NCBI GenBank assembly: GCA_947487175.1
Contig: CANKVM010000015.1
Coordinates: forward strand, 1 to 39,943
Direction: 5' to 3'
DNA: 39,943 bases
From: Flavobacteriales bacterium
GTDB taxonomy: Bacteria > Bacteroidota > Bacteroidia > NS11-12g > UBA955
This document shows, piece by piece, positions 25,391 to 39,943 of the stretch. Under the pieces are notes generated by a model. The model saw only the letters and a list, made by a program, of their open reading frames with translations. It made no database searches and was not told where the DNA came from. Made by a program: the position numbers and the translations under genes. Within the stretch, counting starts at the first letter, position 1, and the number at the start of each line of letters is the position of its first letter.

Positions 25391-28205
25391 ATGAGCGCAC
25401 CTGATACATCTTACCTAATGAATGCCGATCCTACGGCTATCGACAATTTGTATAGCCAATATCAAAACGACAAAGAAAGCGTTGATTTTGGTTGGAGAAA
25501 ATTTTTTGAAGGATTTGATTTAGGAGCTCAAAAACAACCTACAGGCGGAGCAATTAGCGATGATGCAATGAAAGAGATTCACGTTTTGAATCTTATTCAT
25601 GGCTACAGAAGCATGGGCCATTTGTTTAGCAAAACCAACCCACTTCGTCAACGCCGTCAATATTCCCCTAATTTGGATATTGAAAACTATGGCTTAGAAA
25701 AAGGCGATCTAGAAAAAACTTTTAACGCAGGTGCTGAAGTAGGATTAGGAGCAGCCAAATTGAAAGACATCATTGCAAAACTTGATAAAACCTATTGCCA
25801 CAGCATTGGTTGCGAGTTTGCTTACATCCGCGATACAAAACGTCGTAAATGGCTACAAGATCGTTTCGAAGGAACTCAAAATATACCTAATTTAACCATT
25901 GATGAAAAACGTCATTTTCTTGACAAAGTAAATCAAGCTACTGTATTTGAAAATTTCCTTCACAAAAAATTTATTGGACAGAAACGCTTTTCTCTTGAGG
26001 GACTTGAAGCGTTGATTCCTGCTTTAGATGCAGTAATTCAATATGGTGCAGGTCTTGGTTTAGAAGAGTTTGTTTTGGGAATGGCTCACCGTGGTCGCTT
26101 GAACGTACTTGCCAATATTTTTAACAAAACTTACAGCCAAATATTCTCTGAATTTGAAGGTAAAGTTTTCCAAGGTGGAGATTTTGACGATTTTGAAGGA
26201 GATGTGAAATACCATTTAGGTTATAGTGTTGACGTAGATACTGCCGCTGGCAAAAAAGTACATTTGCGTTTGGCCGACAATCCAAGTCACCTAGAAGCTG
26301 TTAACCCGGTTGTAAAAGGATTGGTTAAAGCAAAATTAGACCACAAATACAATGGCGACGTTGAAAAAATATGCCCAATTTTAATCCATGGTGATGCTGC
26401 ACTTGCAGGACAAGGCATTGGATTGGAAATAGTTCAAATGAGTGGCTTGGATGCATATTACGTAGGTGGAACCATTCACATAGCAACCAACAACCAAATC
26501 GGATTTACAACCAATTACCTCGATGCAAGAACTTCAACCTATTGCACCGATGTTGCCAAAATCACCCTTTCTCCAGTTTTACACGTAAATGCCGACGATT
26601 TAGAAGCGGTTGTTCATGCCGTGAAACTCGCAATGGCTTACCGTTTAGAATTCAAATCAGATATTTTCATTGACCTATTGGGTTACAGAAAATATGGACA
26701 TAATGAAGGTGATGAACCTCGTTTCACCCAGCCTGAAATGTATAAGTTAATTGACAAACACCCGAATCCAAGAGAAATATACAAACAACAACTTCTTGAG
26801 CGTGGTGAAATCGATGCTGAGTTGGCTGTAGAAATGGAAAAGAAATTTCAAGAGCTCCTTCAAGAAAAATTTGAAGAAGCAAAAGGCGATTTCAAACCAA
26901 CACCAATTCCAATAAAAAATACTTGGGAAGGATTCAAACACTCCGACAAAAAAGACATTCAACTAGTTGCTAATACCAAGGTTGACTTGAACACTTTGAA
27001 AGAAGTTGGAACCAAAATTTCTACCATCCCTGAAACCAATCAACCAATTAAAAAGGTTCAGAACCTGTTTGCAGACCGCAAAAAGATGATAGATAATGGT
27101 ACCATTGATTGGGCAATGGGCGAATTGTTGGCTTACGCTACTTTATTGAATGAGGGACATCCTGTACGTCTTGTAGGGCAAGATGTAGAGCGTGGAACTT
27201 TCAGTCACCGCCATGCAGTTATCAAACAAGAAATTGGCGAAGCAGAATACACTCCATTAAATAATATTTCTGACAAACAAGCCAAATTCAGTGTTTACAA
27301 TTCTTTGTTAAGTGAATATGCTGCACTTGGTTTTGAATATGGATATAGCACAACTACTCCAAATGGATTGACATTATGGGAAGCCCAATTTGGTGATTTC
27401 TCTAATGGTGCTCAAATTATCATTGATCAGTTTATTGCTTCTGCTGAAGCAAAATGGAATAAATTCAGTGGAATTACAATGCTGTTGCCACATGGTAACG
27501 AAGGACAAGGTCCAGAACATAGTTCTGCGCGTCCTGAGCGTTACTTGCAGTTGTGTGCAGGAACAAACATGCAAGTTCTGAATTGCTCAACTCCTGGAAA
27601 CTATTTCCATGCTTTGCGCCGTCAATTAAAGCGCGATTTCACAATGCCTTTAATTGTGATGACACCAAAGAGTCTTTTGCGTCATCCTAAATGTGTTAGC
27701 TCAATTGATGAATTGTCAAACGGCCATTTCCAAGAATTAATTGATGATCAAAACGGTAATGACACCAAAAAGTTTATTGCGTCACCCTAAATGCGTAAGT
27801 ACTATAGATGAATTGGCAACTGGAAATTTCCAAGAATTAATCGACGATAACAACGTTGCTAACAAGGTTCGCAAAGTACTTTTCTGCACAGGCAAAATCT
27901 ATTATGAATTACTGGCTGAAAAAGAAGCGAAAAACGCTACTGACATTGCCATCGTTAGAATTGAACAATTGTATCCATTACCGGAATGGAAATTAGACGA
28001 AATCTTTGCCAAATACGAAGGCGCAGAATTCTGTTGGGTACAAGAAGAATCTAAAAACCAAGGCACTTGGTTGCATTTGCATCGTTACGACTTCCCTGTT
28101 AAATTAACTTACATTGGTCGCAGAAGCAGTGCAAGTCCTGCTACTGGTTTCAAAAAAGTACACGACGCCGAACAAGCTGAAATTCTTGCAAAATCTTTCG
28201 AATAG
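25391..28205 (+). pseudogene. sucA: 2-oxoglutarate dehydrogenase E1 component, frame broken by a 100-nt duplication
   Basis: The gene encodes the E1 subunit of the 2-oxoglutarate dehydrogenase complex (TPP-dependent decarboxylation of 2-oxoglutarate to succinyl-CoA, TCA cycle; also called odhA). The first frame runs 25391-27790 and starts with the MNADPTAIDNLYSQYQND region that binds E2. It has the E1 motifs LGMAHRGRLNVLANI near residue 232, IHGDAALAGQG near 332, KYGHNEGDEPRFTQP near 436 and TFSHRHAV near 600. The second frame runs from about 27756 to 28205 (VRKVLFCTGKIYYELL). Between them, 27656-27755 and 27756-27855 are two diverged copies of the same 100 nt. Removing one copy restores a 904-residue protein of normal length. 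As given, translation stops at 27788-27790 and the last 150 residues are lost. A true mutation and an assembly join are both possible; the join is more likely. No odhB/sucB follows. Confidence 0.85.
27656..27855. repeat. Imperfect direct repeat, period exactly 100 nt, within odhA
   Basis: Copy 1 (27656-27755) and copy 2 (27756-27855) align without gaps and differ at 20 of 100 positions; 14 differences fall at third codon positions. Both copies encode the same conserved MTPKSLLRHPKCVS...IDEL...FQELIDD segment with five residue changes in 33. The 100-nt offset causes the frameshift. Confidence 0.95.
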
Positions 28206-32017: not shown

Positions 32018-34222
32018 TTATTGTTTTACAATATTTTGAGCAGCAGTAAGCCCATTGCTTGAGCGGATTAACAACAAATAGTTTCCATTTGACCAATTTT
32101 TCGAATCGAGTTTCAATGTTTTACTTGAAGTGGTGGTTTCAAAAACTGTTCTTTCATAAAAGTCTAGAACATAAACATCTACTTGTTGGCCATTAAACGC
32201 AGACATATCAACGTTGAAATCTTGGGTTGATGGATTTGGATAAACATTCACATTCAATGTTTTTGTTGATTTCACTGAAGACGATGGTTTGGTTTCACCA
32301 CAGTATCCACCTTTGATATAAGTCATGTTGCTAAAATCTATAAAACAAGCCCAATCAGGATTATCTATGAAAGGATTTCTATTATTTTGAACGCTACTTT
32401 GGGCAATATATTCCATTCGGGCAATTTCCCAATTCGTTGGAGGGTATTTCTTATTCCAACGTTTAAGAACATTTTGATCTTGATTCATGCCAAGGAATTG
32501 TTTATCGGTTGGAATTGTAAATGCCTTACCTGGTCTGTTATAGGTTGCACAGACATAAAAATTAGCTCGGGCAACTGTTCCTTTGGCAAAATCGCGTGGT
32601 TCATAAGCAAATTCACCAGCGCTATCGGTACCAAATTTACCAGCATAAAAGTTGGTAGACACTGTTTTTAAATTATTCAAAGGATAATTACTTCTTACAG
32701 CATTGACTTTATTTTGATTCACGGGGAACAAAATATGTAAATCACTATAGTTAAAACTATCTTGACTACTTTCTCCCATCCAACTAGATGGATAGCTATG
32801 CTCGCGAGACATTGTGTCGAATTTAAAAGGAGGGGTATATTTATACTGGTAACCAGAATAGAAACAGTTCAAAATTTGTTTGCCCTCTGTAGTATCTCTT
32901 GCTTCAAAATTGTTGATAATATAAGAAGCAAAGTTTGAATAGTAAATTTGACGGTGCGGACGCACAATTGCTTTTAATTTTGCCACCAACATTGTATCCG
33001 CGGATGTTAATGAACCGTAATAAGAACCAGCAAGTAGTCCAGGAGTTGTAACGCTTTGTTCTAATGGAGCAACAGTTAAATAATTTGTAAAGGTGCCATA
33101 GCCGTTGAAACCAAATACGCGAACTACATAATTAGTATTGGCAACAATGTTATCAAAATCGATATTCATATTATTTCCACCAACATAAATCACCCGAGAA
33201 TTCCCAATATATTGACCACGTTGATATTGAACACCATCAACTGGCAAATCTGTTGAACTTCCTTTTGAACAAACAACCAAATAAGATTCCGTTCCAACGG
33301 CAACTGTAAATTTGCCATTCATTCTCCAAGGGTTGACAGTTATATCCAACGCTTTGGGTTGTAATGTTGGCTCGGAAGCAAATTTACCTTTGATTGTAGA
33401 TAATGTTACAGAAAAAGGATTGTTCAATGTATCATTCGAAGTAATAACAAGGGTTACGTTATAGGTTCCTTGAATAGTAGCTTTTAATTTCACTTGAATT
33501 ACCGTTGAATCTCCTGCTGAAATTTTCATTTGTGCCGCATTCACCAATTGAAAATATGTACTTTGATTACCGGATAATTGAATGTTACTAATATTCAATT
33601 CTGCAGCTTTACTATTATTTAAAACCTTAAGTGGAATAAGTGTATCATTTCCAGTTTTAACAGTTGCGTTGTGAATCAACTTTTTACCTATATAAGATAC
33701 TTGTAATTCAGGGGCATCTCCAGCAGTTGCAGGTTTAATGGTCACATCATCAAGAGCCAAATTAAAACCAGATATTTTAGATTTGTAGTAAAATCGAATA
33801 TATCTAGAAGATGGTTTTACACGAATGGTATACATTTTTGTAGATACACCCAAATCGTTTAAATGGTCTTTAACTGTTGACCATGAAGTTCCATCAGTAC
33901 TTTCATCTACAGATACATTTCCTGACCATGTAGTTACACCGGCAGCAGCTGTTCCACTCATCCAATAAGTAATAGTGTCGGCTTTCCCTGACCAAAAGGC
34001 CAAAGCATACTCCCCAGTTAAATCAAAACGAAGCGCATTTGGAGCACTTTTTACGAATGCGGCAGTTGAATAAGTAAAGTTTCCAGTAGCTCCTTGACTT
34101 AATGTCCAACCAGTTGGGGGATTTAAGTTAGAGTTGCAATCAAAATACATTGGTAATGTACCCTGAGCTTTTAACCCAAAACTAACAGTAAGGGTTAAAA
34201 TTGCGATGATATATTTTTTCAT
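32018..34222 (-). CDS. Secreted endonuclease I (T9SS cargo)
   Basis: The 734-residue protein has a signal peptide (MKKYIIAILTLTVSFGLKAQ). An N-terminal jelly-roll-like region (about 20-180) ends LALDDVTIKP, followed by an Ig-like domain to about 285 and a second beta domain to about 390. The endonuclease I domain follows: the His-metal motif SREHSYPSSWM near 472, SDLHILFPVNQNKVNAVRSN near 493, EPRDFAKGTVARANFYV near 541 and NNRNPFIDNP near 613, as in E. coli EndA and Vibrio Dns. A T9SS type A sorting domain (VYPNPSTQDFNVDMS near 660) ends the protein. It would cut DNA outside the cell. It lies 10 nt after the TonB receptor gene. Confidence 0.9.
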   Translation of the reverse strand: MKKYIIAILTLTVSFGLKAQGTLPMYFDCNSNLNPPTGWTLSQGATGNFTYSTAAFVKSAPNALRFDLTGEYALAFWSGKADTITYWMSGTAAAGVTTWSGNVSVDESTDGTSWSTVKDHLNDLGVSTKMYTIRVKPSSRYIRFYYKSKISGFNLALDDVTIKPATAGDAPELQVSYIGKKLIHNATVKTGNDTLIPLKVLNNSKAAELNISNIQLSGNQSTYFQLVNAAQMKISAGDSTVIQVKLKATIQGTYNVTLVITSNDTLNNPFSVTLSTIKGKFASEPTLQPKALDITVNPWRMNGKFTVAVGTESYLVVCSKGSSTDLPVDGVQYQRGQYIGNSRVIYVGGNNMNIDFDNIVANTNYVVRVFGFNGYGTFTNYLTVAPLEQSVTTPGLLAGSYYGSLTSADTMLVAKLKAIVRPHRQIYYSNFASYIINNFEARDTTEGKQILNCFYSGYQYKYTPPFKFDTMSREHSYPSSWMGESSQDSFNYSDLHILFPVNQNKVNAVRSNYPLNNLKTVSTNFYAGKFGTDSAGEFAYEPRDFAKGTVARANFYVCATYNRPGKAFTIPTDKQFLGMNQDQNVLKRWNKKYPPTNWEIARMEYIAQSSVQNNRNPFIDNPDWACFIDFSNMTYIKGGYCGETKPSSSVKSTKTLNVNVYPNPSTQDFNVDMSAFNGQQVDVYVLDFYERTVFETTTSSKTLKLDSKNWSNGNYLLLIRSSNGLTAAQNIVKQ

Positions 34223-34232
34223 TTTTATAATT

Positions 34233-36920
34233 TTAAAAAGTTAATCGTATTCCAGTGGTATATCTTAAACCTTGCGATAAGAAAACTTCCAAATTTTTTG
34301 GATTAAAAATTGGAGCCGGATTATCATTTGCGCCAAGAGACCGATGCTGTGCATCACTAATATAAATGTTGTTCGTAATGTTATTAATCATACCATAAAT
34401 ATTTAAATTCAACTGATTTGGAAGGGTTATTTTGTAACCTAAATTTAAATTCATATACCAATAATCTGGCAAATTAAATGACTCTTTTCCAGCAAAAGCA
34501 CCGGTAAGGGCGGTTGGTTGAAAATCGGCAAATTGCTTTTCAAACCTTACATATTGGAGCGAAATATAAGAACCCTTCAATTCGGTTGGTTCCCAACGAA
34601 TCATCCCTGTGTATTGCACTTGTGCAGCATCACCAACGTGAACCCCATCGGCATTAAACTTAACCATACCCACTGAATCTCCGGCATCGTCTCTCACAAT
34701 TGCATTCGAACCCGATTTCCAAATCCAGTCACCGAGTGCCATTCCAAATTCAATTGTAATTCCACTTCCTGGTTTGAAAACACTTTGTAATTCAATTCCC
34801 ATATGCCTGGCTCTAAGTCCATTGATATTGAAATACAACATATTTCCTTCGGCATCTGGGAAACTTGGCAGAAAATCAACCGGTCTATTTACCCAATTGG
34901 TGTAATAACCATTCAAATTAATCGAGACTCTTTTTGATTTAAATGCAGCTCCACCTTCAAATGCATAAACTAATTCATTTTCAGCACCTTGTATAACACG
35001 ATTTTTATTGTCAAAAATATTACTATAACGTGTTGGTCGGTTTAAATAACCAATATTCGTAAAAATGTTAAAGTTCTTATTCACGTTATAGTTAACGCCC
35101 GTTTTAAGCGTATAACCTGATCTGTTTATCCAATCCGTTTCAGCTGGATTTCCATTCGAATCAAGTCTAAAATAATCTTTACGCTTGTAAAAACTACTCG
35201 AATAACTAGCATTTATAAAAGCTGAAGTTCTACCCCTACTGTATTCTAATTCGCCAAAAGTTCCAGCCCAATTGACCAAACCATCATTGTGATAATTGAA
35301 TATATCGCCTTGCTTATATTTGTGTAATTTATCATACCTTGGATTTAATTCATTCACATCTGGAATAAAATAATCACCTCCAATTAAATCATAAACTTCC
35401 TTATAATGTTGTCCCACATAACTTCTTAAATCAACCCCCCCTGAAAATGTAAAAAATTTATGGAATTTATATTGAGTGGTATTTAACAATCCATACCAAG
35501 TATGATTATTCACACTTCGGTACAAAATACCTGCCGACTTTCTTTCAGTTGGTGAGTATTTATAATCAATGGCAGATACAAATCCATAGTCGTTGTTCTG
35601 AAACCAAACCGATTGAAAATCCATAGTACCATAATTAAATGGCACTTGGTTAACTCTCTCTTTAGCAGTACCCCCACCAGATCCAGTTGACATATAAATT
35701 ACAGTACTACTTAATACTTTTTTATTTGGCTTAAAATCATACTTTAAATAGACTTGAGGTTTATGAAACGTATTCACGCGCTCATTTAGGATTTTATTTT
35801 GCCCCCAAAGAGTATCTCCAGTGTTATTATCAATTTTGGCTTCATTAAGCGAACCCCAATGTTGATTGTATTTAACCCCTTGATTCACCGCCATATTGGT
35901 CAATACCGTATCCATCCCTAATTTCATGGCCATCGAACGATCATATAATGATAATCTAGCTTTATAAGTTCTTTGCCCATGCGCTTGTGGCGCACCCATT
36001 ACGGTTAAGGATAAACTATGTTTACTCCCCCACTGTTTTTCAATTTTAGCAAAGTACGAATACATATCGTCGAATAGATAGTCTACGTAACCGTTGCTAG
36101 AACGCTTTGTAGCAGCGAGTAAAAATCCCCAGTCACCTTTTAATTTACCACTTGCAAAATCAAACCCAAATTGGGTATATCTTGAATCACCAATTTCAAC
36201 ATTCGCTGACAATTTTTGCTGACTAGAAATCCCCTTAGTAATAATGTTCATTGTACCACCCACTGCTGGATTTGCAATTCTACTTGAGCCCAATCCTCTT
36301 TGCACTTGAGTTAAAGCAGTTACAGAACCCAAGCCAAACCAGTTGCTCCAGTAAACCCACCCATTTTCCATATCATTTACGGGTATCCCATCAATCATCA
36401 CTGCAATATTTCTCTGATTGAATCCTCTGATTGTAATTCGAGCATCGCCAGCACCACCACCTTGTTGAGTGGCATAAACACCAGGAGTATTATTTAACAA
36501 CATTGGCAAATCTGAAGAACCAAGTTTTTCTTGAATGTCTTTTGAGGTAATATTGCTATAAGCAATTGGTGTTTTTCGATCTTTTGCCATAGAAGCCGTA
36601 ATCTGTATGGCCTGCATAGACGCGTTTTGATTTTCAAGTTTGAAAACAATATCAAGAATTAAATTTCGATTCGCATTAATTGTAATGGTATCGTTGTTAT
36701 ACCCATCCAAAGATGCCACCAATTCATACTCTCCTATTGGTAGTTGTAAGGTGAAATTTCCGTTTTTATCGGAAGTTACCACATTGCCATTAGTTTTTAT
36801 GAGAGCTTGATTTAGCATCTCACCACTCATAGCATCCGTCACTTTTCCCTTTATGGTTGATTGAGAAAATCCTTCAACGAACAAAAAAGAAAGAAAGCCG
36901 AATAGTATAAGTTTAGGCAT
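34233..36920 (-). CDS. TonB-dependent outer-membrane receptor
   Basis: The 895-residue protein has a signal peptide (ending VEGFSQ), then a carboxypeptidase-regulatory-like domain (residues about 22-95, IKGKVTDAMSGEML and LVASLDGYNNDTI). The plug follows (about 115-230) with LPMLLNNTPGVYATQQGG, ARITIRGFNQRNIAVMIDGI and a VNDMENGWVYW segment. The 22-strand barrel runs to a terminal Phe (TGIRLTF). No SusD-like partner is adjacent, so it is not a standard SusCD pair. Between an LTD exoprotein and a secreted DNase in one tight operon, import of a nucleic-acid product or a cofactor for it is a reasonable inference, not shown. Confidence 0.92.
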   Translation of the reverse strand: MPKLILFGFLSFLFVEGFSQSTIKGKVTDAMSGEMLNQALIKTNGNVVTSDKNGNFTLQLPIGEYELVASLDGYNNDTITINANRNLILDIVFKLENQNASMQAIQITASMAKDRKTPIAYSNITSKDIQEKLGSSDLPMLLNNTPGVYATQQGGGAGDARITIRGFNQRNIAVMIDGIPVNDMENGWVYWSNWFGLGSVTALTQVQRGLGSSRIANPAVGGTMNIITKGISSQQKLSANVEIGDSRYTQFGFDFASGKLKGDWGFLLAATKRSSNGYVDYLFDDMYSYFAKIEKQWGSKHSLSLTVMGAPQAHGQRTYKARLSLYDRSMAMKLGMDTVLTNMAVNQGVKYNQHWGSLNEAKIDNNTGDTLWGQNKILNERVNTFHKPQVYLKYDFKPNKKVLSSTVIYMSTGSGGGTAKERVNQVPFNYGTMDFQSVWFQNNDYGFVSAIDYKYSPTERKSAGILYRSVNNHTWYGLLNTTQYKFHKFFTFSGGVDLRSYVGQHYKEVYDLIGGDYFIPDVNELNPRYDKLHKYKQGDIFNYHNDGLVNWAGTFGELEYSRGRTSAFINASYSSSFYKRKDYFRLDSNGNPAETDWINRSGYTLKTGVNYNVNKNFNIFTNIGYLNRPTRYSNIFDNKNRVIQGAENELVYAFEGGAAFKSKRVSINLNGYYTNWVNRPVDFLPSFPDAEGNMLYFNINGLRARHMGIELQSVFKPGSGITIEFGMALGDWIWKSGSNAIVRDDAGDSVGMVKFNADGVHVGDAAQVQYTGMIRWEPTELKGSYISLQYVRFEKQFADFQPTALTGAFAGKESFNLPDYWYMNLNLGYKITLPNQLNLNIYGMINNITNNIYISDAQHRSLGANDNPAPIFNPKNLEVFLSQGLRYTTGIRLTF

Positions 36921-36922
36921 TT

Positions 36923-37906
36923 TTATTTGATAAATCTGCGACTTATCGATTGACCTGTAACCGATTTTAAATTTATCGTGTAAATTCCCTCAGTTAAGTT
37001 GGTCAAATTCACAGAAATTAGTTGAATTTGATTCATGTTTGCAATTGACCAATCAGCAGAAACAACTTGTCCATTTGAATTCACTATTTCCACAACTGCT
37101 AATTGCATTGAGGTATTGATAAATAATTGATTGGTAGCTGGATTAGGAAAAATTCTAACATTTGCATTGTTTTCAATATGCTTTGTATTAGACAAGTTGC
37201 AATTGCAATTGTGCATACCTAAAGAATCAAACATGTCACGGGGATTTACATTCCATTCTAAAGTAGGATTAAAATACAATTTGGGATTTACCGCAACATA
37301 AACTCCTTTCAAAATGGTATCTAACCCAGTAAAAACTTGTGGTTTACGAATTAGAGTTTTATCAACACTATACCAAAGTCCTGTTCCTGTGTATGGGAAT
37401 TTATCGCTCCAACCTGGTATCGGACGTTCTCCAATTTTACCAAAAATATCTACCAAATCATACTTTGAAGTGGTTGAATTTAGTTTATCTAAAGACATAG
37501 CGTCATCGCCATTAAAACTCATAGAAAAAGATGTGTTATAATCTTTACTCAAAAACAAATCTGCTTTCAAACGCAATCGCAATACAACGGGAGTATCCTG
37601 ACCAATTTGAGTTGTATCTCTTCTATCTAAAACCAAAACGACAACATCTTTAGGCGCTAATTTACCTGACAACGCATCAGAATATTGAGACGTCCATGAT
37701 GCTGATCCATTTTGCCAACGAGTAACTCTATATTTTGATAGATCTACAGTATCAGTGGTTGGATTGTAAATTTCAAGTGCTTTATTATTCCTAGAACCTT
37801 CAACATATTCACTAATAAACAATTCAGTACAAACAGGAACATTTTGAGCTTCCGCTGAAACTAAAGTTACCAATGCCAATAAACCAAAAAAGAATCTTTT
37901 TGCCAT
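36923..37906 (-). CDS. Lamin-tail-domain exoprotein with T9SS sorting domain
   Basis: The start chosen is the ATG at 37906 (MAKRFFFGLLALVTLVSAEAQ), which begins a typical signal peptide; the open frame extends 12 codons upstream. The 327-residue protein has an LTD (about 23-180): ELFISEYVEGSRNNKALEIY near the start, then LSKYRVTRWQNGS, KDVVVLVLDRRD and DDAMSLDKL. A loop-rich middle part precedes the T9SS type A sorting domain (IFPNPATNQLFIN near 250, NLTEGIYTINL near the end). LTDs of this kind occur in bacterial extracellular nucleases such as ExeM-type enzymes, so a DNA-binding or surface-anchoring role is inferred. It leads the operon LTD - TonB receptor - endonuclease, with a 2-nt gap to the receptor gene. 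Confidence 0.85.
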   Translation of the reverse strand: MAKRFFFGLLALVTLVSAEAQNVPVCTELFISEYVEGSRNNKALEIYNPTTDTVDLSKYRVTRWQNGSASWTSQYSDALSGKLAPKDVVVLVLDRRDTTQIGQDTPVVLRLRLKADLFLSKDYNTSFSMSFNGDDAMSLDKLNSTTSKYDLVDIFGKIGERPIPGWSDKFPYTGTGLWYSVDKTLIRKPQVFTGLDTILKGVYVAVNPKLYFNPTLEWNVNPRDMFDSLGMHNCNCNLSNTKHIENNANVRIFPNPATNQLFINTSMQLAVVEIVNSNGQVVSADWSIANMNQIQLISVNLTNLTEGIYTINLKSVTGQSISRRFIK

Positions 37907-38039
37907 AATTACATTCAAACATCGTAATTTCCTAACAAACAAGCAACTTAAAACAGAAGACTTTTCAATTTTTTAACATTTAGGGCATCCTTGAAATTGA
38001 TTTTTTGATCTAATTTTGTATGAATAACACAAGAGAACT
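37907..38039. promoter_or_regulatory. Divergent promoter region, nuclease operon / 5'-nucleotidase genes
   Basis: On the plus strand TAATTTTG (38011-38018) matches TAnnTTTG with a CTTG 17 nt upstream (37990-37993), driving the 5'-nucleotidase genes. On the minus strand a near-match GATGTTTG lies about 9 nt upstream of the LTD gene ATG. The shared 133-bp region would let one regulator act on both operons, but I see no clear operator palindrome. Confidence 0.45.
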
Positions 38040-38834
38040 ATGAATTTGAACAGGTCCACATATTTTTTTATTCTAATTAGCCTATGTTCAATATTTGCAT
38101 GTAAAACACCTGCCAAAATCATTGTTGGCCAAAATATTGAGGTAACAAATAATAATATTCCTATTGATTCGAATAGCTATTTTTTTCTAAAACCGTTTTC
38201 AGATTCTTTACATTCTGTTTTAAATATCAAACTTGCCTATACCGATTCTAACCTAAATACTGTTCGCCCTGGTAAAATTAACCAAAGAAGGCAAATCGAA
38301 AAAACTGCAAATCTTGGGCGGATTCTGAGCGATTATTTACTGAAAGAAGGGAGTAAATACACATTAAATACCATGGGATTCCCATGCCATTTTGCCTTAA
38401 TCAATCATGGTGGCATTCGCTCGAGCATTCCCAAAGGTGATATTACCAACAAATCAATGTATGAAATCATGCCATTTGAAAATGAAATGGTTATTTTAGA
38501 AATCAATGGCCGCCAAATGGATTCGTTGCTCTCTTTTTTATCGGCTAAAAATATTGCCGCAGTTTCTGGATTAACTTTAGAAGTAAAAGGAAATAACTAT
38601 ACCAAAGCTACAATTGCAGACTTGCCATTCAATTCCGAAAAAAATTATTGGATTGTAGCCAATGACTATGTCCAAAAAGGCGGAGATTTTTTTAACATGT
38701 TAAAATATCCCAAACAAATCATTCGAACTGGCATAAAATTACGAACCATTTTTTACGATGGATTTAAGTCTGAATTTTCTGAAACAAATAAAATCAACCC
38801 TTGTTTAACTCCTAGAATTTTATTCAATGACTAA
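38040..38834 (+). CDS. 5'-nucleotidase C-terminal domain lipoprotein
   Basis: The 264-residue protein has a lipobox-like signal (LISLCSIFACKT, Cys near residue 21). The rest is a 5'-nucleotidase C-terminal substrate-binding domain: HFALINHGGIRSSIPKGDIT near 118, YEIMPFENEMVILEINGRQM near 141 and YWIVANDYVQKGGDFFNML near 207. This domain binds the nucleoside in UshA-like nucleotidases, but the metal-binding catalytic domain is absent here; it is encoded by the next gene. The overlap of 8 nt with that gene indicates translational coupling. The pair probably forms one split enzyme in the periplasm. Confidence 0.85.
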   Translation: MNLNRSTYFFILISLCSIFACKTPAKIIVGQNIEVTNNNIPIDSNSYFFLKPFSDSLHSVLNIKLAYTDSNLNTVRPGKINQRRQIEKTANLGRILSDYLLKEGSKYTLNTMGFPCHFALINHGGIRSSIPKGDITNKSMYEIMPFENEMVILEINGRQMDSLLSFLSAKNIAAVSGLTLEVKGNNYTKATIADLPFNSEKNYWIVANDYVQKGGDFFNMLKYPKQIIRTGIKLRTIFYDGFKSEFSETNKINPCLTPRILFND

Positions 38835-39708
38835 CCGCAGGCGTTTTCTTAAAAAAATTGCACTTTTTATTGGAGGGACATTGACTCTTCCCTACATAGA
38901 GTTATTTGCAAAGCCAGTTTCCCTCGAAATTAAAAAAAAGAAAAGACTCTGCGTGTTGCATACCAACGACTTCCATAGTCACTTCGATGCGTTCCAAAGT
39001 AACCATCCTACATGGCCCAACGAAGGTGGAATTTTACAACTTGGTGGAATTATTCAAAAAATTCGTGCAGAAGAAGAAAATGTATTGCTTTTCGATTGCG
39101 GCGATGTTTTTCAAGGCACCCCCTATTTTAACTTTTTTGAGGGAAAACCGGAACTCGAATGGATGGAAAAAATGGGTTATCATGCGGGTACATTAGGTAA
39201 TCATGATTTCGATTTAGGCATTAATCACCTTGCCAAATTAAAATCAACAAATTCTATTCCACTTGTAAATTGCAATTATAATTTTGAGAATACCCCATTA
39301 AAAAACATCGTCAAAAAGCATATTGTCATTGAAAAAGGCGGAATAAAAATTGGGGTTACCGGCGCTAGCATTGACTTACAAGGCTTACTCACTGAAAATA
39401 TGTATCAGGGAATTATTTATAACGACCCCGTAAATCCAATTCAAAATGAAGTAAACTATTTAAAAAATAAAGAAAAATGCGACTTGGTTTTTGTGCTATC
39501 ACATTTGGGGTATGAATATCAAGATGATAAAATTGACGATTTAAAACTTGCAAAAAGAACTTACGGAATAGATGCAATTTTAGGTGGACATACGCATACG
39601 TTTCTTGAAAAGCCTACCGAAGTAAAAAATTCAAAAGGCAAAACTGTAATTGTAAACCAAGCTGGATGGGCCGGACTAAGATTAGGCAATCTAGTTTTCG
39701 AAATATAA
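38827..39708 (+). CDS. Metallophosphatase domain of a split 5'-nucleotidase, Tat signal
   Basis: The 293-residue protein has a twin-arginine signal (NRRRFLKKIALFIGG, residues 3-17). The calcineurin-like metallophosphatase core follows: LHTNDFHSHFDAF near 42 (first Asp and His), FDCGDVFQGTPYF near 87, TLGNHDFDLG near 117, VLSHLGYEYQ near 218 and LGGHTHTFLEKP near 250, the last with the GHTH metal motif. These match the N-terminal domain of UshA/NadN-type 5'-nucleotidases. It would release phosphate from nucleotides in the periplasm. The substrate-recognition domain is carried by the gene just upstream, in reverse of the usual order in fused enzymes. Confidence 0.9.
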   Translation: MTNRRRFLKKIALFIGGTLTLPYIELFAKPVSLEIKKKKRLCVLHTNDFHSHFDAFQSNHPTWPNEGGILQLGGIIQKIRAEEENVLLFDCGDVFQGTPYFNFFEGKPELEWMEKMGYHAGTLGNHDFDLGINHLAKLKSTNSIPLVNCNYNFENTPLKNIVKKHIVIEKGGIKIGVTGASIDLQGLLTENMYQGIIYNDPVNPIQNEVNYLKNKEKCDLVFVLSHLGYEYQDDKIDDLKLAKRTYGIDAILGGHTHTFLEKPTEVKNSKGKTVIVNQAGWAGLRLGNLVFEI

Positions 39709-39743: not shown

Positions 39744-39943
39744 TTGAATAATTCAGCAATAGACGAAGAAGAGTTACCTAACGAAGAATCGTGGTTTGAA
39801 CATCATGCATTTATTGTAGACAAAGGACAAGAACCTTTGCGCATTGATAAGTGGTTGCAAGTTCGTATAGCAAATGCAACACGATCTAAAATACAAGCAG
39901 GTATTGAAGCTGGCTGTGTGTTGGTTAACAATAAGCCCATAAA
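39744..39943 (+). CDS. RluD-family pseudouridine synthase, N-terminal S4 part only
   Basis: The gene runs off the window after about 66 codons. It starts at a TTG at 39744. An acidic N-terminus (DEEELPNEESW) is followed by an S4 RNA-binding domain: LRIDKWLQVRIANATRSKIQ and IEAGCVLVNNKP, the typical entry of RluA/RluC/RluD enzymes. The catalytic domain with the HRLD motif is outside. It would isomerise uridines of rRNA. RluD versus RluC cannot be told from this part. Confidence 0.75.
   Translation, partial: MNNSAIDEEELPNEESWFEHHAFIVDKGQEPLRIDKWLQVRIANATRSKIQAGIEAGCVLVNNKPI

Follow-up and report, generated by a model that had tools for sequence, protein, structure and literature searches.

The window analysed here is the complete contig CANKVM010000015.1 (C15) of a Flavobacteriales bacterium (assembly GCA_947487175.1), a stretch of 39,943 nucleotides (nt) that ends at position 39943. 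It carries two divergent groups of genes, one encoding an exported protein with a lamin-tail domain (LTD), a TonB-dependent receptor (TBDR) and an endonuclease I (EndoI), and the other encoding the two halves of a 5'-nucleotidase (Table 1). The original prediction, made from the sequence alone, was that these five genes form a locus for scavenging extracellular nucleic acids, with a tight minus-strand trio divergent from a coupled plus-strand pair. The coordinates of the open reading frames (ORFs) agree with this layout, the gaps being 2 nt between the LTD and TBDR genes and 10 nt between the TBDR and EndoI genes, and the plus-strand pair overlapping by 8 nt. An alternative, longer ORF for the LTD gene, with a TTG start, reaches 37942.

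Table 1. Features of the candidate nucleic-acid utilisation locus (T9SS, type IX secretion system; Tat, twin-arginine translocation)
Feature	Position	Strand	Remarks
LTD exoprotein	36923-37906	-	ATG start; signal peptide, lamin-tail Ig-like domain, LGxHxCxC region, T9SS type A sorting domain
TonB-dependent receptor (TBDR)	34233-36920	-	Pfam Plug and CarboxypepD_reg N-terminal extension
Endonuclease I (EndoI), T9SS cargo	32018-34222	-	Pfam PF04231 1.2e-25; Por_Secre_tail 1.1e-08
NucC, 5'-nucleotidase C-terminal substrate-binding half	38040-38834	+	Pfam PF02872 (5_nucleotid_C) 2.3e-22
Metallophosphatase, 5'-nucleotidase N-terminal half	38827-39708	+	Pfam PF00149 (Metallophos) 1.9e-19; Tat-like NRRRFLKK signal
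Divergent promoter region, 133 nt, between both operons	37907-38039		visual comparison with as many as 16 homologous regions

The nuclease of the window is a member of the Endonuclease_1 family, scoring 91 bits against a curated cutoff of 25. It aligns to 1oup, a Vibrio nuclease structure, and contains the REH and NxxRSN motifs that are conserved in 60 aligned homologues. Export of both EndoI and the LTD protein through the T9SS had been proposed, and the sorting signals are indeed present on each: the type A model TIGR04183 is matched with 29.8 bits by EndoI and 35.8 bits by the LTD protein (cutoff 23), and Por_Secre_tail is also over its cutoff in EndoI and reaches 4.6e-12 in the LTD protein. 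The description of the plus-strand pair as a split 5'-nucleotidase is likewise accurate, the two adjacent genes being complementary halves of UshA, with NucC matching residues 335-533 and the metallophosphatase residues 28-257. Both halves align to 2z1a, NucC with GGIR and GGD motifs and the metallophosphatase with its metal-ligand motifs kept, so that by sequence the pair has what an UshA-like enzyme requires, and it may be active as two chains. The N-terminus of NucC is lipoprotein-like, with a lipobox-like motif in 25 of 38 called homologues; taken with the Tat-like signal of the metallophosphatase, this indicates that both halves should act outside the cytoplasm.

In addition to its sorting domain, the LTD protein has a Pfam LTD domain (8.4e-12) and matches the LTD part of ExeM (5.9e-15). 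Its predicted model (pLDDT 88.5) finds Ig-type domains, including lamin 1ifr and a Bacteroides DUF4876 protein, all of them low-scoring matches. An LGxHxCxC motif (residues 229-236, at about 37199-37222) between the LTD domain and the T9SS tail is strongly conserved in receptor-linked LTD proteins, as judged from a 49-row alignment. A larger LTD-domain protein is encoded at the opposite end of the contig (1421-4114; ORF of 897 amino acids, LTD at residues 366-472, E=6.5e-11). The receptor was said to lack a SusD partner, and no SusD-like domain was found by Pfam among the locus proteins; nor do those Pfam assignments or the fold matches of the receptor indicate a SusC-like protein paired with a SusD-like lipoprotein.

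To place the locus in the phylum, an alignment of the receptor was scanned against 84,980 species genomes, and the best 80 loci, nearly all with an LTD protein just ahead of the receptor, were taken together with further loci. The loci were thus selected by similarity to the window's receptor, and the counts include two same-contig duplicates (L081/L044 and L084/L057). The labels among the best 80 include Bacteroidales, Flavobacteriales, Saprospiraceae and Crocinitomicaceae, and the locus is also found in Brumimicrobium oceani C305. An LTD protein is encoded immediately upstream of 95 receptors, the LTD-TBDR gap not exceeding 112 nt in 93 of 97 cases and the gap between TBDR and the next gene staying within 63 nt in 81 of 89. 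On a tree of 110 receptors, built by a quick method and midpoint rooted, a supported clade (SH-aLRT 97) has the LTD gene in 87 of its 92 rows, compared with 0 of 18 outside it, and the LTD label changes 5 times, against 21.2 in shuffles. Had the closest homologues of the receptor lain in siderophore, B12 or peptide contexts, the original prediction would have been undermined; they instead adjoin LTD proteins and nucleases. In a reciprocal survey of 296 Bacteroidota genomes with a profile of the LTD protein, only receptor-linked proteins (the window's locus, C132, G041 and G045) scored above 300 bits, the next match reaching 185 bits. Within the window's family, the order LTD-TBDR-EndoI divergent from NucC-metallophosphatase is seen in most sampled loci with a long enough contig, and EndoI occurs in 33 of 36 receptor-carrying genomes versus 5 of 23 that lack the receptor (Fisher 4.7e-08, for genomes that are not phylogenetically independent). 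Since the window's genome has a single Endonuclease_1 match, and since the same order recurs in most sampled family loci, the arrangement is not due to chance.

A few entries in this sample carry doubtful labels. The 4.4-kb contig C132 (L041), assigned to the window's own genome, holds a second LTD-TBDR pair; a duplication was considered and rejected, as its receptor is separated from Crocinitomicaceae sequences by very short branches only, and the contig, being probably mis-binned, was left out of the evidence. The contig ends inside the third gene of this locus, the portion present showing no nuclease domain. The accession CP034120.1 (L122:1-22718), labelled Glaciecola amylolytica (Gammaproteobacteria), contains a Crocinitomicaceae-type locus with flanking genes of the corresponding sizes, and its title is probably wrong. 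The titles of several metagenome-assembled genomes are also at odds with the receptor tree (L081, L100 and L148, 'Chitinophaga pinensis'; L085, 'Sphingomonadales').

Counting nucleases within the next three codirectional genes after the receptor, a nuclease is present in 80 of the 84 LTD-linked loci (out of 95) that are not cut by contig ends: EndoI in 53, a phospholipase D (PLD)-type protein in 25, and both in 2. When downstream genes are clustered, nucleases account for 76 genes, NucC for 17 and the metallophosphatase for 16, the remainder being small groups. One further locus (L060) has an EndoI ORF overlooked by the gene caller, and a Bacteroidales locus (L103) has three EndoI genes in tandem after the LTD and receptor genes. 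Mapped onto the receptor tree, the type of nuclease has changed at least nine times. That unrelated nucleases are exchanged while the LTD protein and receptor stay constant is the strongest argument that the receptor handles nuclease products. It also speaks against a different view, in which the nuclease is merely co-regulated with a receptor whose cargo is a siderophore, cobamide, PQQ-like cofactor or metal chelate. That view is consistent with the fold matches of the receptor, which are to siderophore, citrate and PQQ receptors, and with a weak NCBIfam similarity to BtuB. No siderophore or B12 receptor equivalog was matched over its cutoff, the best, TonB-B12, reaching 47.3 bits against 599.7. 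Repeated swapping of the nuclease superfamily is hard to explain unless nuclease activity is itself selected, and no gene family beside the receptor is as widespread as the nuclease. Import of such other cargo is therefore considered unlikely.

The PLD-type proteins at first gave no phmmer match and were identified from Pfam. A scan of 33 downstream proteins found T9SS tails in 30, PLDc_2 in 24, DUF5689 in 21 and Endonuclease_1 in 7, and two HxKxxxxD..GSxN (HKD) motifs are intact in 23 of 28 PLD entries. The best solved relatives of one PLD protein are Zucchini/MitoPLD and the bacterial Nuc (1byr), which are nucleases, although the PDB name of Zucchini/MitoPLD is cardiolipin hydrolase. PLDc_2 proteins include phospholipases, and it could be imagined that the locus serves general scavenging of phosphate from phosphodiesters such as phospholipids, with nucleic acids as one case and the PLD versions acting on lipids. 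The response to phosphate of LTD-EndoI genes in Flavobacterium johnsoniae, described below, would fit such a function, but the nature of those solved relatives, and the fact that most loci have EndoI in the corresponding place, make it very improbable. In six loci from a group of Bacteroidales-type genomes (L092, L109, L118, L143, L149 and L156), a glycosyltransferase-like gene lies downstream, accompanied in five by dihydroorotase-like and MORN-like genes; confined to five or six loci with PLD, this was treated as ordinary synteny, and these genes were not retained as members of the unit.

The nucleotidase pair, which is divergent in the window's family, is codirectional and immediately follows EndoI in Crocinitomicaceae-type genomes (L063, L095, L120, L122, L131, L134 and others). 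Its linkage to the locus is thus found in two groups of genomes that differ in gene arrangement, and that of the nuclease is kept across Bacteroidota, where an absence of linkage in relatives would have spoken against the original prediction.

A further link between LTD and nuclease comes from gene fusions. At the same position of the locus, LTD is fused to EndoI in L098 and to PLD in L153, and single ORFs with LTD and EndoI also exist in other genomes. Most of the lower matches to the LTD profile are LTD domains inside larger ORFs, and 18 of 47, in genomes that were also searched for EndoI, lie within 6 kb of an EndoI match on the same strand, several in the same ORF. In F. johnsoniae, EndA1 and EndA2 have fn3, LTD and endonuclease I domains, and are up 4.66 and 4.13, respectively, under phosphate depletion (transcriptome column, fold-change scale of Table 1 in PMC8115612). 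Outside the LTD clade, related receptors are paired with a lipoprotein and EndoI (L167 and L168) or with another T9SS protein and EndoI (L169), showing that the surface partner can differ too. The lipoprotein-like proteins between receptor and nuclease (L167:5227-6888 and L168:5005-6162), one of them made of repeated segments, match no Pfam family above cutoff and may be alternative surface partners.

Taken together, the locus is probably a TonB-powered nucleic-acid utilisation locus that cuts its substrate outside the cell and then imports the products. The T9SS would export the LTD protein and the nuclease, and the nuclease (EndoI here, PLD-type elsewhere) would cut DNA, and possibly also RNA, outside the cell, either on the surface or close to it, where the LTD protein would probably serve to keep substrate, nuclease or receptor in one place. 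The receptor would then use TonB to bring the resulting oligonucleotides or nucleotides through the outer membrane, and the periplasmic two-piece 5'-nucleotidase of the window's family and of Crocinitomicaceae-type genomes would strip phosphate, with nucleosides and phosphate then entering the cell. A SusD-like role for the LTD protein, as a scaffold or in holding substrate, is plausible, but is the least certain step of the mechanism. We infer what the receptor transports, that the LTD protein binds, and what the locus provides to the cell, be it phosphorus, nitrogen, carbon or nucleobase salvage; gene context suggests that fragments are imported and serve as a source of phosphorus.

Several observations weigh against this interpretation. 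The predicted model of the receptor (pLDDT 83.9) appears to have a FhuA/FecA/PqqU-type fold, and its substrate is not readable from that fold, the best Foldseek matches being PqqU (9c4o), FhuA and FecA at 12-15% identity. A few LTD-TBDR loci have no adjoining nuclease (L088, L123 and L158), and in the fusion loci examined, of the Flavobacterium-type LTD-EndoI kind, no receptor of the LTD clade adjoins. ExeM without its LTD has slower activity in vitro and a clearing zone near that of wild type (PMC6085458), and the LTD of Xds is dispensable (PMC6746945). Within the window's family, one locus (L187) has kept nuclease and nucleotidase with no LTD or TBDR gene, and another (L188) has LTD and nuclease without TBDR, showing that the nuclease does not need the receptor and that loss of the import genes can leave the rest of the site in place. 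Finally, most PLD loci are without the nucleotidase pair, and some genomes of the order that lack this receptor nevertheless have nucleotidase C as a short gene of its own; the nucleotidase is thus an optional finishing step. The five genes were originally taken as one unit, of which the LTD-TBDR-nuclease core is conserved and the nucleotidase pair is only an optional part.

Another possible function is the clearing or remodelling of extracellular DNA in biofilm matrix or DNA traps, or the feeding of natural transformation, with nutrition secondary. Such secreted nucleases act on biofilms of Vibrio and Shewanella (PMC6085458, PMC6746945), and SusC/RagA-type and CarboxypepD_reg-type proteins affect natural transformation in Riemerella (PMC8459023). 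Removal of matrix, however, needs neither a dedicated receptor nor a periplasmic nucleotidase, and a nuclease made together with the receptor would be expected to destroy transforming DNA, so that this alternative is regarded as quite unlikely.

The likeness to a polysaccharide utilisation locus (PUL) of the SusCD type lies in the operon with a secreted depolymerase, a surface protein, a TonB-dependent importer and periplasmic finishing enzymes. It differs in having a T9SS-exported LTD protein instead of SusD, a receptor whose top fold matches are not SusC-like, and nucleases instead of glycoside hydrolases; among the five proteins, Pfam finds only nuclease, nucleotidase, LTD and receptor domains, and no carbohydrate-active enzymes. 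The PUSI-IV systems of F. johnsoniae are also based on TBDRs and scavenge organic phosphorus, and EndA1/2 are secreted proteins that unite an LTD with endonuclease I, but PUS combine SusCD or other lipoproteins with phosphatases, and the EndA genes are listed as orphans (PMC8115612). DNA-degradation loci of Candidatus Izemoplasmatales (PMC8289736) co-localise extracellular nucleases, phosphate-removing enzymes and transporters, and one of their nuclease proteins combines an LTD with nucleic-acid-binding domains, but these organisms have no outer membrane and use ABC transporters, with no TBDR or T9SS. ExeM and Xds of Shewanella and Vibrio (PMC6085458, PMC6746945) combine LTD, a nucleic-acid-binding OB fold and a nuclease, but in a single polypeptide, with an EEP nuclease and without receptor or T9SS. 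No earlier description of an LTD-TBDR-nuclease locus came up in full-text searches of open-access literature. The locus is best regarded as a variation on PUL-like nutrient loci, directed at a new class of substrate. A wider proposal, that such PUL-like loci represent a phylum-wide class of TonB-energised importers of oligonucleotides or nucleotides, with LTD in the role of SusD and interchangeable unrelated nucleases, is put forward tentatively, as a possibility that falls somewhat short of even.

In relatives, the genes beyond the nucleotidase pair read as a pseudouridine-synthase-like gene and a ferredoxin-type reductase, so that the five genes appear to be bordered at either end by housekeeping genes. 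Both NadC-Trx-RlmD, on one flank, and the pseudouridine-synthase-like gene, on the opposite one, were rejected as members of the unit, being absent beside the locus outside the window's family. Comparison by eye of the divergent intergenic region with up to 16 regions of the window's family, made with no formal test, revealed AT-rich stretches resembling promoters but no other obvious motif in common. Elsewhere in the window, sucA (2-oxoglutarate dehydrogenase E1) contains two tandem 100-nt copies at 27656-27855 that are 80% alike and break the frame into ORFs at 25391-27790 and 27741-28205, a pattern that suggests an artefact of assembling a strain chimera more than real biology.

Bacteroidota are reported to be widespread degraders of extracellular DNA, and the excerpts of PMC8289736 and PMC11495043 consulted name nucleases and nucleotidases for this process, but no route by which the fragments pass the outer membrane. 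For DNA-feeding Bacteroidota, such a route could be provided by a receptor that is genetically linked to exchangeable secreted nucleases, which makes it a concrete candidate, and because Brumimicrobium oceani C305 is a named strain carrying the locus, the proposal is testable there. If true, the PUL principle would be extended from glycans to nucleic acids, and the locus would provide a metagenome marker for DNA feeding.

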